Positions 17,513 to 36,780 of a stretch of 64,000 bases of DNA are shown piece by piece. The stretch comes from Geothrix sp. PMB-07 (lineage in GTDB: Bacteria; Acidobacteriota; Holophagae; Holophagales; Holophagaceae). Made by a program: the position numbers and the translations under genes. The stretch lies in the NCBI RefSeq assembly GCF_030758935.1, contig NZ_CP132333.1, positions 2,604,992 through 2,668,991 on the forward strand, given 5' to 3'. Positions within the stretch are counted from its first letter, which is position 1; each line of letters opens with the position of its first letter. The notes beneath the pieces were generated by a model. That model was not told the DNA's origin. It made no database searches and saw nothing but the letters and a program-made list of their open reading frames with translations.

Positions 17513-17527
17513 AGCAAAGGCCATTCA

Positions 17528-17641
17528 GCCGCAGATAAACACGGATGAACACAGATGAAAGCGATTAAGGGCACGGAGCCACCGAAGCGAGTAGGCCTTA
17601 GCCTTGTCCTTTATCTGCGTTCATCGGTGTTTATCTGTGGC
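17528..17641. repeat. Inverted repeat, ATCTG/TCATC-rich arms, no gene inside
   Basis: The left arm 17528-17562 and right arm 17609-17641 are reverse complements at about 29 of 34 aligned positions. Both carry the sequence family GCAGATAAACAC(G/C)GATGAACAC. The 46 bases between contain no ORF. The arms resemble those bracketing the GxxExxY gene at 35 kb. Confidence 0.7.
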
Positions 17642-17740
17642 TTCAAATGCCTTGCCCCTTGAAGTGGGTTGATCGCTCATCTGGCCCAACCCAGCAAAGG
17701 CATGCCTACCGCTAAGGTTTCCACCCAAGGCTCCAAATAA

Positions 17741-32628: not shown

Positions 32629-34992
32629 CTAGTTGCGGAGGGGTCTCCCCGTCTTCAGGATCGCGTCCATGCGAGCCTGCGTTTTCTCATAACTGCAAAG
32701 CCGGGCGAAGGCCTGCCGTTCCAGTTCGAGAATGCGCTCCTCGCTGACCTCCTGCACCGGGCTCACGTCGCCGCCGCAGAGGATGTGAGCCAGTTCGCCC
32801 ATGATGATGGCGTCGTGTTCACTGGCCAGGCCCTGCAACTGGAAATCGCGCACGGCCATCTTGAGTGCCTCGCTGCCCCCCCGGCCTGGCAGGCGCAGGG
32901 TGCGCTCCTTCAGGGGCTGGAAGTCTGCGGCCATCTTCAGCACTTCCTGCTTGGCCTCGTTCAGCAGGAAGGCCTTGTTCATGACGCGGCGATCGCTGCG
33001 CCGCAGGTAGCCGTTGCGCTGGGCCTCATCGAAGCTGGTGTGTACCGCGGCTGTTCCGATGCCCTGGAAGCTAGCCTTCACCTTGGGCATGGGCCCCAGT
33101 TCGCCCCTGGCGGCCATGGCATCCTCCATGCGCAGAAGCATCTGCAGGCAACCGCCGCCCGCGGGGATGACACCCACACCCACTTCCACCAGGCCGATGT
33201 AGAGCTCGGCATGGCCCACCACGCGCTGGCAGGCCATGGACATCTCGCAGCCGCCGCCCAGGGCCAGGTTGAAGGGTGCAGCGACGGTGGGGAACGGGGC
33301 GTAGGTGAGCATGCGGCCCGCGTACTGCAGGCGCCTCGCCACTTCCTCGATCAGATCGTACTGCTTGTCCTTGGCGGCGTTCAGCACCATCACCAGGTTC
33401 GCCCCGGCACTGAAGTGCTGGCCCTGGTTGCCCAACACCAGGCCCTTGAAGCGCCCGGGCACGTGCTTCTGCACCGAGTCTTCCATCAGGCCGATGATGC
33501 CGTCATCCAGCGCATTCATCTTGCTGCGGAAAGCCAGGCAGGCCACATCATCACCAATGTCGAGCAACTGGCAGCTGCCGTTCTCTGCCACCACCTTGCC
33601 CTTGCCCTCTTCGCGCTTGAGGATGATCACGCGCTTGTCTTCGAGGATGGCGTCGTAGGCCAGGGTCTTCGGATTCAGCTGCGCCACCGGTACGCCATGC
33701 TCCCAGCGGTAGAAGCTGGTGAGGCCCTTGGCCAGCATCTGCTCCACGAGCGGGGCGATGGGACGCTCCTCGAAGCGCATGCGTGCCACCACCCGTTCGA
33801 CACCGAGCGTGTCCCACAGCTCGAATGGGCCCAGCTCAAAGGCGAAGCCGTTGCGGATGGCACGATCCACGTTCAGGGGCCCGTCCGTTACCTCGCCCAG
33901 GCGGTTCACCGCGTAGGTGAGGTTCGGCGCAATGCAGCGCCAGGCCAGTCGCCCGGCCTCGGTGTCGCTGGTGAGCAGCGTCTTCACCTTTTCCGCGGGA
34001 TCATCGATGCCCTTCAATTCCTTGAGCAGGGGCCAGTCCTTCTTCACCTGCGGGATGTACTCGCGGGTAGTGGGATCGATGGCCAGGAAGGTCTTCTTGC
34101 CCTTGGCGTCCTTGGGCCCCTTCTTGAAGAAGCCCTGCTTGACCTTGTTCCCGAGCAGTTTGTTGTCGAGCATCCACTGCAGGAATTCCGGGAACGTGAA
34201 GACCTCGCGCACTTCATCATCGGGGCACAGGTCGTAGACGTTCTTCGCCGTGGCCGCGAGGATGTCCACACCCGCCAGATCCGCGGTGCGAAAGGCCGCG
34301 CTCTTGGCCCGCGCGGCTGCATCGCCCAGCACCAGGTCCAGCACCTCGAAGGGCACCTTCTCTTCCAGAGCAAGGTGCAGCGTGGCCATGATGCCGTGGA
34401 TGCCGATGCGGTTGCCGATGAAGGTGGGCGAATCGAAGGCGGGCACCACCTCCTTGCCCAGGGCCTCTTCCAGCCAGGTGCGGAAGGCCGTGGCCTCCAC
34501 CTCATCCACCTCGGGGCCCTTTACGAATTCCAGCAACCGGAGGTAGCGCACCGGATTGAAGAAATGGGTGATGACGAAGTGCTTGCGGAAGGCGTCGCCG
34601 CGGCCTTCCACCAGCAGCTTCAGGGGAATGCCCGACGTGTTCGAGCTCACCCAGGCGCCGGGCTTCAGGTGGGCCTCCAGGCGGCCGTACAACTCCCGCT
34701 TGATGGCCAGATCCTCCTTCACCACCTCCACCACCCAGTCGCAGTCCGCCAGGCGGTCCAAGTGGTCGCGCAGGTTACCGGGCCGGATCTTCTTCAGGTA
34801 GGCGGCGTGCATGACCAGGGCCGGTTTGGATTTGGCCAGGGCCGCCAGGGCGCCCTCCGCCAACTTGTTGGGTGCCGCCTCGTCAATGACGATGTCCAAC
34901 AGTTCCACCTGGCAGCCCGCCGAAGCCACGTGCGCCGCAATGCCCGAACCCATCACACCTGAACCGAGCACGCCGATCTTCTTGATGGTCAT
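32629..34992 (-). CDS. fadN: 3-hydroxyacyl-CoA dehydrogenase / enoyl-CoA hydratase (FadN type)
   Basis: 787 residues, similar in length and domain order to Bacillus FadN. An NAD-binding Rossmann motif (IGVLGSGVMGSGIAAHVA) begins the dehydrogenase; ITHFFNPVRYLRLLE is the hydroxyacyl-CoA dehydrogenase signature; the C-terminal domain is crotonase-like (LGGGCEMSMACQRVVGH). It performs steps 2 and 3 of beta-oxidation in the cytoplasm. AGGAG five bases ahead. Lies 12 bases after the GxxExxY gene and should be cotranscribed with fadA. No acyl-CoA dehydrogenase is seen nearby. Confidence 0.95.
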   Translation of the reverse strand: MTIKKIGVLGSGVMGSGIAAHVASAGCQVELLDIVIDEAAPNKLAEGALAALAKSKPALVMHAAYLKKIRPGNLRDHLDRLADCDWVVEVVKEDLAIKRELYGRLEAHLKPGAWVSSNTSGIPLKLLVEGRGDAFRKHFVITHFFNPVRYLRLLEFVKGPEVDEVEATAFRTWLEEALGKEVVPAFDSPTFIGNRIGIHGIMATLHLALEEKVPFEVLDLVLGDAAARAKSAAFRTADLAGVDILAATAKNVYDLCPDDEVREVFTFPEFLQWMLDNKLLGNKVKQGFFKKGPKDAKGKKTFLAIDPTTREYIPQVKKDWPLLKELKGIDDPAEKVKTLLTSDTEAGRLAWRCIAPNLTYAVNRLGEVTDGPLNVDRAIRNGFAFELGPFELWDTLGVERVVARMRFEERPIAPLVEQMLAKGLTSFYRWEHGVPVAQLNPKTLAYDAILEDKRVIILKREEGKGKVVAENGSCQLLDIGDDVACLAFRSKMNALDDGIIGLMEDSVQKHVPGRFKGLVLGNQGQHFSAGANLVMVLNAAKDKQYDLIEEVARRLQYAGRMLTYAPFPTVAAPFNLALGGGCEMSMACQRVVGHAELYIGLVEVGVGVIPAGGGCLQMLLRMEDAMAARGELGPMPKVKASFQGIGTAAVHTSFDEAQRNGYLRRSDRRVMNKAFLLNEAKQEVLKMAADFQPLKERTLRLPGRGGSEALKMAVRDFQLQGLASEHDAIIMGELAHILCGGDVSPVQEVSEERILELERQAFARLCSYEKTQARMDAILKTGRPLRN

Positions 34993-35004
34993 GGAAAACT
35001 CCTT

Positions 35005-35427
35005 TTAGTCCACAGATTCCACGGATTTCACAGATTCTGATTGAGTCTGGGTATTGGAAGCTCCGACCATCCGTTTGGTTTCGAGGGATCTGGTCCCGAA
35101 ATTCAACAGAAGCCCAACCGGCCTTCCACTCACCTTTAGGTAGTTCAGGAGTTGCGCATCCTCGATGGGGCCCAGCCGAACGAGGGCTTTCAATTCGACG
35201 ATGACGCGGTTGAAACAAATGAAATCAGCTCGGTAGGCCGTGTTGAGTTTTTCGCCTTTGTATTCGATGGGAAGCAAAGCCTCCCGCTCGAACGGAATGC
35301 CTCGCAGCCGAAATTCATGGGCCAAAGCTTCCTGATAGGCCGACTCAGCGAATCCACAGCCAAGCACCCGGTGAACCTCCGTGGCCGCACCGATAATGGC
35401 GAAAGTCTCTGGATCCTTGGCTTCCAC
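35005..35427 (-). CDS. GxxExxY family protein, bracketed by inverted repeats
   Basis: 140 residues with a GTG start at 35427; the frame is open much further upstream into the fadA end, but that part is only the repeat arm read as protein. The core shows the family signature GAATEVHRVLG and GFAESAYQEAL, the pattern GxxExxY, an ADFICFNRVIVELKAL segment that looks like a PD-(D/E)xK nuclease-type motif, and QLLNYLKVSG. The family is widespread, of unknown function, and commonly found between such repeats. The last codons lie in the left arm, so the protein tail SVKSVESVD is encoded by the repeat. It sits between fadA and fadN in the same direction and splits an otherwise contiguous pair. Confidence 0.85.
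   Translation of the reverse strand: MEAKDPETFAIIGAATEVHRVLGCGFAESAYQEALAHEFRLRGIPFEREALLPIEYKGEKLNTAYRADFICFNRVIVELKALVRLGPIEDAQLLNYLKVSGRPVGLLLNFGTRSLETKRMVGASNTQTQSESVKSVESVD
35009..35040. repeat. Left arm of the GxxExxY inverted repeat
   Basis: CCACAGATTCCACGGATTTCACAGATT-like arm; its reverse complement closely matches the right arm at 35437-35470. It carries the last codons of the GxxExxY gene and ends three bases before the fadN ribosome binding site. Confidence 0.8.
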
Positions 35428-35436
35428 GATTGCCCC

Positions 35437-35470
35437 AGATGAATCTGTGTGAATTCGTGAAATCTGTGGA
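35437..35470. repeat. Right arm of the GxxExxY inverted repeat
   Basis: GAATCTGTG...AATCTGTGGA arm located just beyond the GTG start of the GxxExxY gene. It abuts the end of fadA exactly (fadA stop is at 35471), so the element looks inserted between two genes without damage. Confidence 0.8.
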
Positions 35471-36619
35471 TCAAATTGTTTCGATGACCGACGCGATGCC
35501 CTGGCCGCCGCCGATGCACATGGTGGCGATGCCGTAGCGGCCGCCATCGGTTTCGAGGCGGCTCAGCAGGGTGGTGAGGATGCGCGCGCCGCTGGCGCCC
35601 AGGGGATGCCCCACGGCGATGGCGCCGCCCCAGGCATTCACCTTGGCGGGATCATAGCCACCCTCGCGGATGACGGCCAGGCTCTGCGCAGCAAAGGCTT
35701 CGTTGAGTTCCATGGCGTCGATCTGATCGAGTTTCAGGCCGCAGCGGTCCAGCACCTTCTTCACGGCCGGCACGGGGCCGATGCCCATCCGGTCCGGTTC
35801 CACGCCCGCCACGGCGCCGCCGAGGATGCGCGCGCGGGGCTTGAGGCCCAGGGACTTGGCCAGCCCTTCCTCCATCACCAGCAGGAACGCGGCGCCATCG
35901 GTGACGGGCGAGCTGTTGCCGGCGGTGACATTCCCATCGGCCAGGAAGGCAGGCTTCAACTCCCCCAGCTTCTCCAGGCTGGTATCGGCGCGCACGCATT
36001 CATCCTGCTGCAGGGTGACCGCCTTGCCGTCGAGGCCCTTGGTCTCGAAGCGAACGACCTCCTTCTCGAACTTGCCCGCCTTCCAGGCCGCCGCGGCCTT
36101 CTGATGGCTGCCGTAGGCGAATTCATCCTGTTCGCGCCGGCTGATCTTGTATTCCTTGGCCAGGTTCTCGGCGGTGATGCCCATGGAACAGTAGGCCGCG
36201 GGGTAGGTCTCGCTGATGAAGGGATCGATGCTGGGATTGAAGCCCATCATGGGCACCTTGGACATGCTCTCCACGCCGCCCGCCAGGAAGAGGTCCCCCT
36301 GGTTGGCCAGGATGGCGCGCGCAGCCATGAGCATGGTTTCCTGACTGCTGCCGCAAAAGCGGTTGATGGTGGCCGCGCCCGCGGTGATGGGCAGGCCCGA
36401 GCGGAAGCTGATGAGGCGCGCCATGTTCATGCCCTGTTCGCCTTCGGGCATGGCACAGCCCACCAGCACATCTTCCAAGGCCGACCAGTCCTTCAGCAGG
36501 GGCTTGATGGCTTCGATCACCACCGCGCCCAGCGCCTCGGGGCGGGTGGCGGCGTAGGCTCCCTTGACGCCCCGGCCGATGGGGGTGCGCTTGGCTTCAA
36601 CGATGACTGCGGATCGCAT
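35471..36619 (-). CDS. fadA: Acetyl-CoA acyltransferase (thiolase)
   Basis: 382 residues; ATG at 36619 has GGAGG five bases ahead. Thiolase motifs: FCGSSQETMLMA (acyl Cys), NAWGGAIAVGHPLGASGARI, and CIGGGQGIA (second Cys). It performs the last step of beta-oxidation. It is the first gene of the unit and is followed by the GxxExxY element and fadN. Divergent from the MoxR gene; 161 bases between hold promoters. Confidence 0.96.
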   Translation of the reverse strand: MRSAVIVEAKRTPIGRGVKGAYAATRPEALGAVVIEAIKPLLKDWSALEDVLVGCAMPEGEQGMNMARLISFRSGLPITAGAATINRFCGSSQETMLMAARAILANQGDLFLAGGVESMSKVPMMGFNPSIDPFISETYPAAYCSMGITAENLAKEYKISRREQDEFAYGSHQKAAAAWKAGKFEKEVVRFETKGLDGKAVTLQQDECVRADTSLEKLGELKPAFLADGNVTAGNSSPVTDGAAFLLVMEEGLAKSLGLKPRARILGGAVAGVEPDRMGIGPVPAVKKVLDRCGLKLDQIDAMELNEAFAAQSLAVIREGGYDPAKVNAWGGAIAVGHPLGASGARILTTLLSRLETDGGRYGIATMCIGGGQGIASVIETI

Positions 36620-36780
36620 GGGTCCTCCGGGGAATCGGCTGTCTGGGTTTCCGAGGAGCCTAGCATCCGCTGAGTGCGCCCGGAGCACTTACCGTGGGTC
36701 ATGGTGGGCTTACCGGAAGTCAACGCAGCGTTTCGGCCCACGGCCTTTCCGGGCAAGATGGAAGCATCCTAGGACACCCC

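Follow-up and report, generated by a model that had tools for sequence, protein, structure and literature searches.

Homing endonuclease genes are small nuclease genes that sit at one site, are patchy among relatives and leave their neighbours whole. The intervening sequences (IVS) of 23S rRNA have a flanking stem. Those that carry an S23 open reading frame (ORF) are described as selfish stretches about 430 nt in length that include a small ORF, found in a transcribed place and inherited vertically after their acquisition (PMC4990558). REPIN-RAYT systems are made of inverted doublets of short extragenic repeats that occur in many dispersed copies and are tied to specific members of one gene family (PMC3116915), and intergenic heptamer repeats, e.g., the TAACTGA arrays of Beggiatoaceae, are described as short tandem units that often lie just before start codons (PMC4679880).

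We analyzed a 64-kb stretch of DNA (the window) from Geothrix sp. PMB-07, whose genome is a single contig of 4.24 Mb, in which a GxxExxY gene and its inverted arms lie between fadA and fadN. Like homing endonuclease genes, such GxxExxY units appear resident, are patchy and spare their neighbours, but inverted arms and dispersed gene-less copies belong to them. The unit is similar in size and build to a 23S rRNA IVS, but it is located between protein genes (fadA/fadN) in operons instead of in a 23S rRNA helix and it encodes a predicted nuclease. Dispersed inverted doublets exist here as in REPIN-RAYT systems (15 of 16 own-genome sites inspected, judged extragenic from the neighbouring sequence), but the gene encodes a predicted PD-(D/E)xK nuclease matching only the PDDEXK_3 and GxxExxY profiles instead of a Y1 (HUH) tyrosine transposase, and the arms are tandem arrays of 9-10-nt units that bracket the gene itself, at sites that are reused by different arm families. 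On our best reading, the GxxExxY unit would thus work like a REPIN-RAYT system in outline and would not be a member, since the defining enzyme is absent in the gene. Unlike the GxxExxY arms, the heptamers of Beggiatoaceae form mostly direct arrays, and the available part of their description shows no bracketing of a gene (PMC4679880). A search of the open-access literature, with subscription papers and preprints outside its scope, found nothing on GxxExxY with matched inverted arrays and no mention of PDDEXK_3 or of six arm motifs.

Results

A GxxExxY gene between inverted arms at the fadA-fadN junction

The earlier note on this DNA had described a GxxExxY gene between inverted arms, placed exactly between fadA and fadN, and its presence there, between the fadA stop codon and the fadN leader, was confirmed by the arms themselves, by profile matches and by the open frames of both neighbours (Table 1).

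Table 1. Positions in the window of the GxxExxY unit, its neighbours and a gene-less inverted pair
Feature	Position	Strand	Description
fadA (thiolase)	35471..36688	-	operon neighbour upstream of the GxxExxY gene; open frame
alpha arm	35441..35470	-	upstream of the GxxExxY gene; minus-strand reading TCCACAGATTTCACGAATTCACACAGATTC; ends at the fadA stop codon
GxxExxY gene	35005..35427	-	140 aa, GTG to TAA; predicted minimal PD-(D/E)xK nuclease, motif G.G..E..Y then D...ExK
beta arm	35009..35037	+	plus-strand reading TCCACAGATTCCACGGATTTCACAGATTC; within the 3' end of the GxxExxY coding sequence
unit end and fadN leader	34993..35008	-	AAAAGGAGTTTTCC, followed by ATG; shares bases with the GxxExxY stop codon; unlike the leader of empty relatives
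fadN (3-hydroxyacyl-CoA dehydrogenase and enoyl-CoA hydratase)	32629..34992	-	downstream neighbour; open frame
gene-less inverted pair	17517..17653		137 bp; related arm family, CACAGATGAA-type units

The two arms are inverted copies (TCCACAGATTCCACGGATTTCACAGATTC at 35009-35037 versus GAATCTGTGTGAATTCGTGAAATCTGTGGA at 35441-35470), and both are arrays of units of about 9 nt, of the type CACAGATTT. The alpha arm directly abuts the fadA stop codon (35473-35471), while the beta arm codes for SVKSVESVD, the C-terminal tail of the GxxExxY protein, shortly before the TAA stop (35007-35005); the GTG start at 35427 is our own choice, the program-made ORF list giving only a longer frame. Both fadA and fadN are intact and point in the same direction as the GxxExxY gene. 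A repeat search returned 35004-35027/35452-35475 as the sole inverted pair in 34800-35700 (24 nt, 83% complementary). Over the whole window, four inverted pairs reached an arm score of at least 18, versus a mean of 0.67 in three shuffles, and two of these four were array-like (the fadA-fadN unit and the gene-less pair of Table 1), the other two seeming to be diffuse GC-rich matches. These observations support a discrete unit at fadA-fadN whose neighbours stay whole. No promoter was predicted in 34900-35600, where one terminator-like site was found versus 0.7 expected, and an Rfam scan of 19 loci (61,765 bases, including part of the window) gave three matches to miRNA models with E of 0.075-0.59, far below gathering, which we took as chance.

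The encoded protein is a predicted PD-(D/E)xK nuclease

The 140-aa protein reached 142.3 bits with the TIGR04256 GxxExxY profile (cut-off 35) and 134.2 bits with the PF13366 PDDEXK_3 profile (cut-off 22). The nuclease motif keeps its catalytic D, E and K without exception in 43 of 43 rows (from 53 first given) and in 12 of 12 in another set; the invariance of G..E..Y is partly built in, because the loci from many phyla were found using the peptides GFLEKVYE and NA[LM][VA]HE[LC]RK. The structure was predicted with a pLDDT of 89.7 and a pTM of 0.81, the SVKSVESVD tail being of low confidence. Its closest solved fold is SSO0001 (4ic1), which we take to be Cas4-like (Foldseek E 1.4e-4; VIA Z 10.1, 104 aligned, 4.7 A rmsd), followed by LHK-Exo (alkaline exonuclease), lambda exonuclease, MGME1 and RecE at Foldseek E of 1e-3 to 1e-2, and lower down by the Hjc resolvase at Z 7.0, a range that possibly means just a common arrangement. 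The nearest solved folds are those of the RecB/lambda-exonuclease/Cas4 branch, from which the GxxExxY protein differs by having only 140 aa. Further VIA rows, from Z 7.7 downwards, belong to a mixture of nucleases, which makes the assignment to this branch uncertain. In the PDB, no sequence relative was found at E under 0.17, and a single match at E 0.17 was not accepted. With its conserved D and E-x-K, a modeled mixed sheet between helices and these fold matches, the protein qualifies as a predicted nuclease of the PD-(D/E)xK superfamily.

The gene showed a dN/dS of 0.04-0.16, indicative of purifying selection, a value that is only rough because dS was saturated in most pairs. We also considered that GxxExxY may be an anti-phage defence gene, and rejected this identity since no defence or phage family of PADLOC-DB or PHROGs matched the protein at E <= 0.1. 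The 140-aa protein, used as the only query, matched 8 of 72,556 plasmid records and 0 of 50,697 phage records. The viral contigs of IMG/VR contain three relatives of it (L131-L133), which are possibly host sequence.

Gene and matched arms recur across phyla

Matched inverted arms with a score of at least 18 were detected in the two 200-nt flanks of the gene at 64 of 80 GxxExxY loci from many phyla, versus 1 of 273 displaced windows of the same loci, and a score of at least 20 was reached by 58 of the 80 versus 0 of 273. The remaining 16 loci, a few of them with short flanks, had no clear arms. When flanks from different loci were paired at random, a score of 18 was still reached in 93 of 300 cases because motifs are common to many loci, the median being 14 versus 23.5 within loci. 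The own phylum gave a score of at least 18 in 60 of 64 distinct loci (68 before duplicate proteins were removed). Among eight named plasmid loci, arms were clear in three (a Bacteroides radA neighbour, Bernardetia and Sphingomonas fabD-fabG), while five had no clear arms. Even with no requirement for a match, the composition of left and right arms co-varied (Spearman 0.59-0.95) in the 96 of 144 loci that have two or more units in each arm. Units of the same locus also resembled each other more than shuffled units did (0.93 versus 0.67). Altogether, these results show that a gene with matched arms is a general architecture across phyla.

Protein identity also predicted arm similarity (Mantel rho 0.52, p 0.001) over 120 of the 144 loci, those with an arm score under 18, duplicates or stops being left out; rho was 0.18 (p 0.001) for pairs below 55% identity and 0.11 (p 0.011) between two collections. 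The junctions that host units include fadA-fadN, ftsA-ftsZ, rpoB-rpoC, argS-pyrG, cdsA-like-dxr and fabD-fabG. Taking the longest open frames as neighbours, and counting 99 of 109 loci (10 were without a neighbour), the GxxExxY gene had the same orientation as its upstream neighbour in 72 loci (p 7e-6), as the downstream one in 66 (p 0.001) and as both in 52.

At L068, L080, L190 and L206, each flank is itself palindromic, so that a pair of complete short elements encloses the gene, in a composite-like arrangement. Genes of the TIGR02436 four-helix-bundle (S23) type (L283-L312) have inverted arrays too, mostly of 7-nt units such as GCTATCA, GTCTTCA or AGTTGAA, with an arm score of at least 18 in 17 of the 24 loci given out of 30, a count with no displaced control. 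At L252, a single landing site appears able to hold either the GxxExxY-type or the S23-type repeat class.

Genome G065 (L101-L130) holds a multicopy IS-like repeat with the ends TAGGCTGTGTTCGGAATCTA and CGAACACACCCTA, in which a GxxExxY unit and its arms are nested, mostly in truncated form; this one genome gave 50 family matches. We rejected the idea that its multicopy fragments are MITEs derived from the GxxExxY unit: conserved sequence continues upstream of the unit to an IS-like end in 27 anchored copies, over about 60 bp in all 27 and still at 880 bp in about 12 of them, and the unit is therefore nested in another element.

Arms are dispersed in the source genome as gene-less pairs

The earlier note had proposed looking for the arms elsewhere in the genome, and they are indeed repeated there: matches with E<=1e-3 were found at 31 places, the fadA-fadN unit included, the scoring covering 40 of the 45 candidates of a first look. 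With up to three mismatches allowed, a 27-base arm pattern gave 16 matches, of which one is the fadA-fadN unit and two overlap each other, versus 0 for the reversed control. We inspected 16 further arm sites, a part of all places found, judging their extragenic position from neighbouring sequence instead of annotation; 15 of them are gene-less inverted pairs, in each of which an arm on the plus strand and another on the minus strand enclose a loop of 9-80 nt that has no room for a GxxExxY gene. As in the gene unit, one arm is nearer to alpha and the other nearer to beta in 10 of these 15 pairs. Their loops are less alike than their arms (53% versus 83%), so that copying of the whole unit finds no support in the gene-less pairs. 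The genome encodes five GxxExxY genes, each with an arm family of its own (CACAGATTT, CACGGAGA, CACAGATGAA/CACGGATGAA, CACCAAGA and GCGGAGG).

The fadA-fadN lineage appears resident while its arms change

A close fadA is present in 42 of the 47 genomes of the genus, own included, and we assigned the state of their fadA-fadN junctions by reading the sequences. Twenty junctions are empty and just 35-38 bp long, ten contain the gene, one, a mosaic, has a stub of the gene together with a nested CACAAAG palindrome, and eleven contain gene-less palindromes belonging to about three other arm families. The gene comes with CACAGATT arms in six genomes (type B) and with CGCAGATGA arms in four (type C). 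On a tree of fadA and part of fadN, these states are patchy and imply at least 17 changes, and L093 (empty) and L094 (palindrome), which are 96% identical over the same genes, have wholly different intergenic alleles. Most empty junctions (L036-L040 and others) keep an inverted repeat, TCCAACC ... GGTTGGA, just before fadN, which might be a remnant. At L034, L243 and L246, palindromes are nested in the loops of palindromes of a different family, as if loops were landing places.

Among the matches listed, all genus proteins that are 88-63% identical to the 140-aa protein are encoded at fadA-fadN, and at 60-62% identity two more are found there (G026, G031) and three elsewhere (two in G020, one in G008). 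In a protein tree built from few columns and with some weak forks, the fadA-fadN copies group in a single clade (11 rows, support 98/96), to which L085 from another genus of the family belongs. Since the arms take three forms inside this single resident clade, they appear to have changed while the gene stayed. In a sample of best matches covering 64 of 69 loci of the genus, pairs from different genomes that are at least 80% identical occupy the same site in 44 of 48 cases, versus 0 of 1345 for pairs below 50% identity. The four exceptions come from one lineage with members 74-90% identical, found at ftsA-ftsZ in four genomes and at rpoB-rpoC in two (L061, L064); the neighbours of L009 and L061 were named by profile and those of the other members by flank similarity. 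A second candidate for a two-site lineage (sites 4 and 7) is less clear. Judging from these comparisons, we conclude that the GxxExxY gene lineage does not appear to hop freely and is probably kept by purifying selection at its site while its arms change in place.

Empty sites at high identity and reuse of palindrome sites

A close filled/empty pair was found between a cdsA-like gene, a label based on a profile match below the curated cut-off, and dxr: a 494-bp unit in G008 corresponds to 14 bp in G018, the flanks being 95.4% and 95.7% identical. In G018, a TAA stop apparently lies directly before the GTG start of dxr, while in G008 the upstream gene stops with TGA and the ATG start of dxr follows a GGAGG located where the arm ends. 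We saw no target-site duplication in this pair, the sole close one, in which the unit stands in place of the 14 bp.

We also looked up 15 own-genome sites in five congeners and retrieved 70 of the 75 site-genome pairs, counting as an element any arm score of at least 16 and as own family any similarity of at least 17 to the own arms; a raw match of G026 at site L017, in a region of 1.7 kb, was counted by hand as no element. By our tally, 8 of the 70 pairs hold the own family, 34 hold another family and 28 hold none or no assignable one. In 12 of the 34 palindromes of another family the motif is a nearer one, mostly of CGCAGAT type (similarity 12-16), and the other 22 differ clearly. All 15 sites were retrieved from G016, with the same family at 6, a different one at 5 and none or no assignable one at 4. 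Site L015 has a palindrome in all five relatives and never of the own family, and at two sites (L229, L233) a whole GxxExxY unit with arms of a different family is present in a relative. Random segments reached a score of 16 in 0 of 600 cases at 120 nt, 16 of 600 at 300 nt and 65 of 600 at 500 nt, most reuse sites being shorter than 150 nt. In 163 kb beside fadA-fadN in those genomes, 8 inverted pairs reached a score of 18, two of them array-like, with a scanner that recovers only 15 of 22 junction elements read by eye. The reuse of palindrome sites is thus far above background, and fresh insertion, conversion or allele exchange could each produce it.

These results partly support the proposal of the earlier note that the unit is a mobile or domesticated element that spares the operons it lands in. 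Its discreteness, the empty sites, the repeated arms and the whole neighbours fit that proposal, while free hopping of the gene is not supported for a lineage that stays at fadA-fadN. The unit does look domesticated, considering its dN/dS and its residence at one site across two genera. Mobility had been regarded as unlikely should relatives have no empty sites and the arms not be repeated elsewhere; both exist, matched empty sites being found in 20 of 42 genomes at fadA-fadN and in the one pair at dxr.

Gene type and genome-wide arm counts

Counting matches per genome, the unit's own arms included, we found 16, 5, 8, 11, 10 and 19 CACAGATT arms in the six type-B genomes, while the other 41 genomes had a median of 0 (p 9e-5). 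For CGCAGATGA arms, the counts were 15, 42, 4 and 29 in the four type-C genomes, and the median of the other 43 was 1 (p 0.007). The crossed tests, of each arm type against the other gene type, gave p 0.26 and 0.22. Phylogenetic pairing left 4 independent pairs for type B and 2 for type C, with the trait going the right way in 2.3-2.6 versus 0-0.1 (B) and 0.9-1.0 versus 0-0.3 (C); with so few pairs, significance is out of reach and the link is confounded by descent. Individual genomes also depart from it: G031 has 18 CACAGATT matches with the other gene type, the type-B genomes G017, G035 and G042 have 13-16 CGCAGATGA matches each, and G005, G015, G037 and G044 have 13-22 CGCAGATGA matches and no type-C gene at fadA-fadN. 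A link between gene type and genome-wide arm number is thus suggestive only.

Discussion

We propose, giving it about an even chance, that the GxxExxY unit is a compact, selfish and semi-resident unit of about 470 bp, located at a stop-start junction inside an operon, with a RecB/Cas4-like nuclease predicted to act on its own arms. That the nuclease acts on its own arms is plausible considering the correlation between protein and arms. It would recognize these arms, either as duplex units or as their hairpin, and cut or trim there; repair from another arm-bearing locus would then copy the arms and only rarely the gene. Such a biased, homing-like conversion could spread gene-less pairs, make the arms of one genome resemble each other and favour sites where a palindrome is already present, while selection would retain the gene itself at a few sites. 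A position at a stop-start junction would be tolerated since each neighbour retains a stop, a start and a ribosome site.

An unlikely alternative is that the element acts at the RNA level, its arms pairing in the polycistronic mRNA and being processed, for instance by RNase III as in 23S rRNA IVS, so that it insulates or tunes the operon and is either kept for the benefit of the host or neutral. The arms do close a long stem round the gene in RNA (fold z -4.8 over 100 shuffles), as expected for any long inverted repeat, the gene is frequently co-directional with its neighbours (72 of 99 upstream, 66 of 99 downstream, 52 both), and a 428-nt Coxiella IVS with an ORF is excised by RNase III (PMC4990558). 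However, pairing in the mRNA leaves unexplained why arms track the protein lineage, why the same arms form gene-less pairs at unrelated sites and why half of the genus is without a unit at fadA-fadN.

We find it still less probable that the arms belong to a MITE or REP-like family moved by another transposase, with GxxExxY as a captured passenger. Most inspected arm sites are indeed without a gene, and passenger status does occur, as for the unit in the tail of the multicopy IS-like repeat of G065, but the arms vary with the protein lineage and the gene is found with matched arms in many phyla. Equally improbable in our view is that nothing moves actively, patchiness resulting from homologous recombination in the flanking genes together with loss, and arm homogeneity from slippage and template switching in quasi-palindromes. 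This would suit the residence of the gene at its site and the wholly different intergenic alleles of species as close as those of L093 and L094 (96%), but it leaves unexplained how one arm family came to occupy 15 unrelated sites of a single genome and how one lineage came to be at both ftsA-ftsZ and rpoB-rpoC.

Returning to a nuclease that acts on its own arms, a bolder version, which we put forward tentatively and consider rather doubtful, is that a minimal PD-(D/E)xK nuclease rewrites palindromes genome-wide to its own motif by cut-and-repair. The set of intergenic palindromes of a genome would then change family together, and junctions, including those in essential operons, would be recycled by successive families. 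On this view GxxExxY units would be selfish elements of a new kind, and S23-type genes and their 7-nt inverted arrays would form a second branch in parallel.

GxxExxY proteins, whose name states only a motif, are found in many phyla, and seeing the gene and its arms as one unit turns an orphan family into a testable system. GxxExxY units could also account for one class of intergenic repeats and provide REPIN-RAYT systems with a nuclease-based counterpart.
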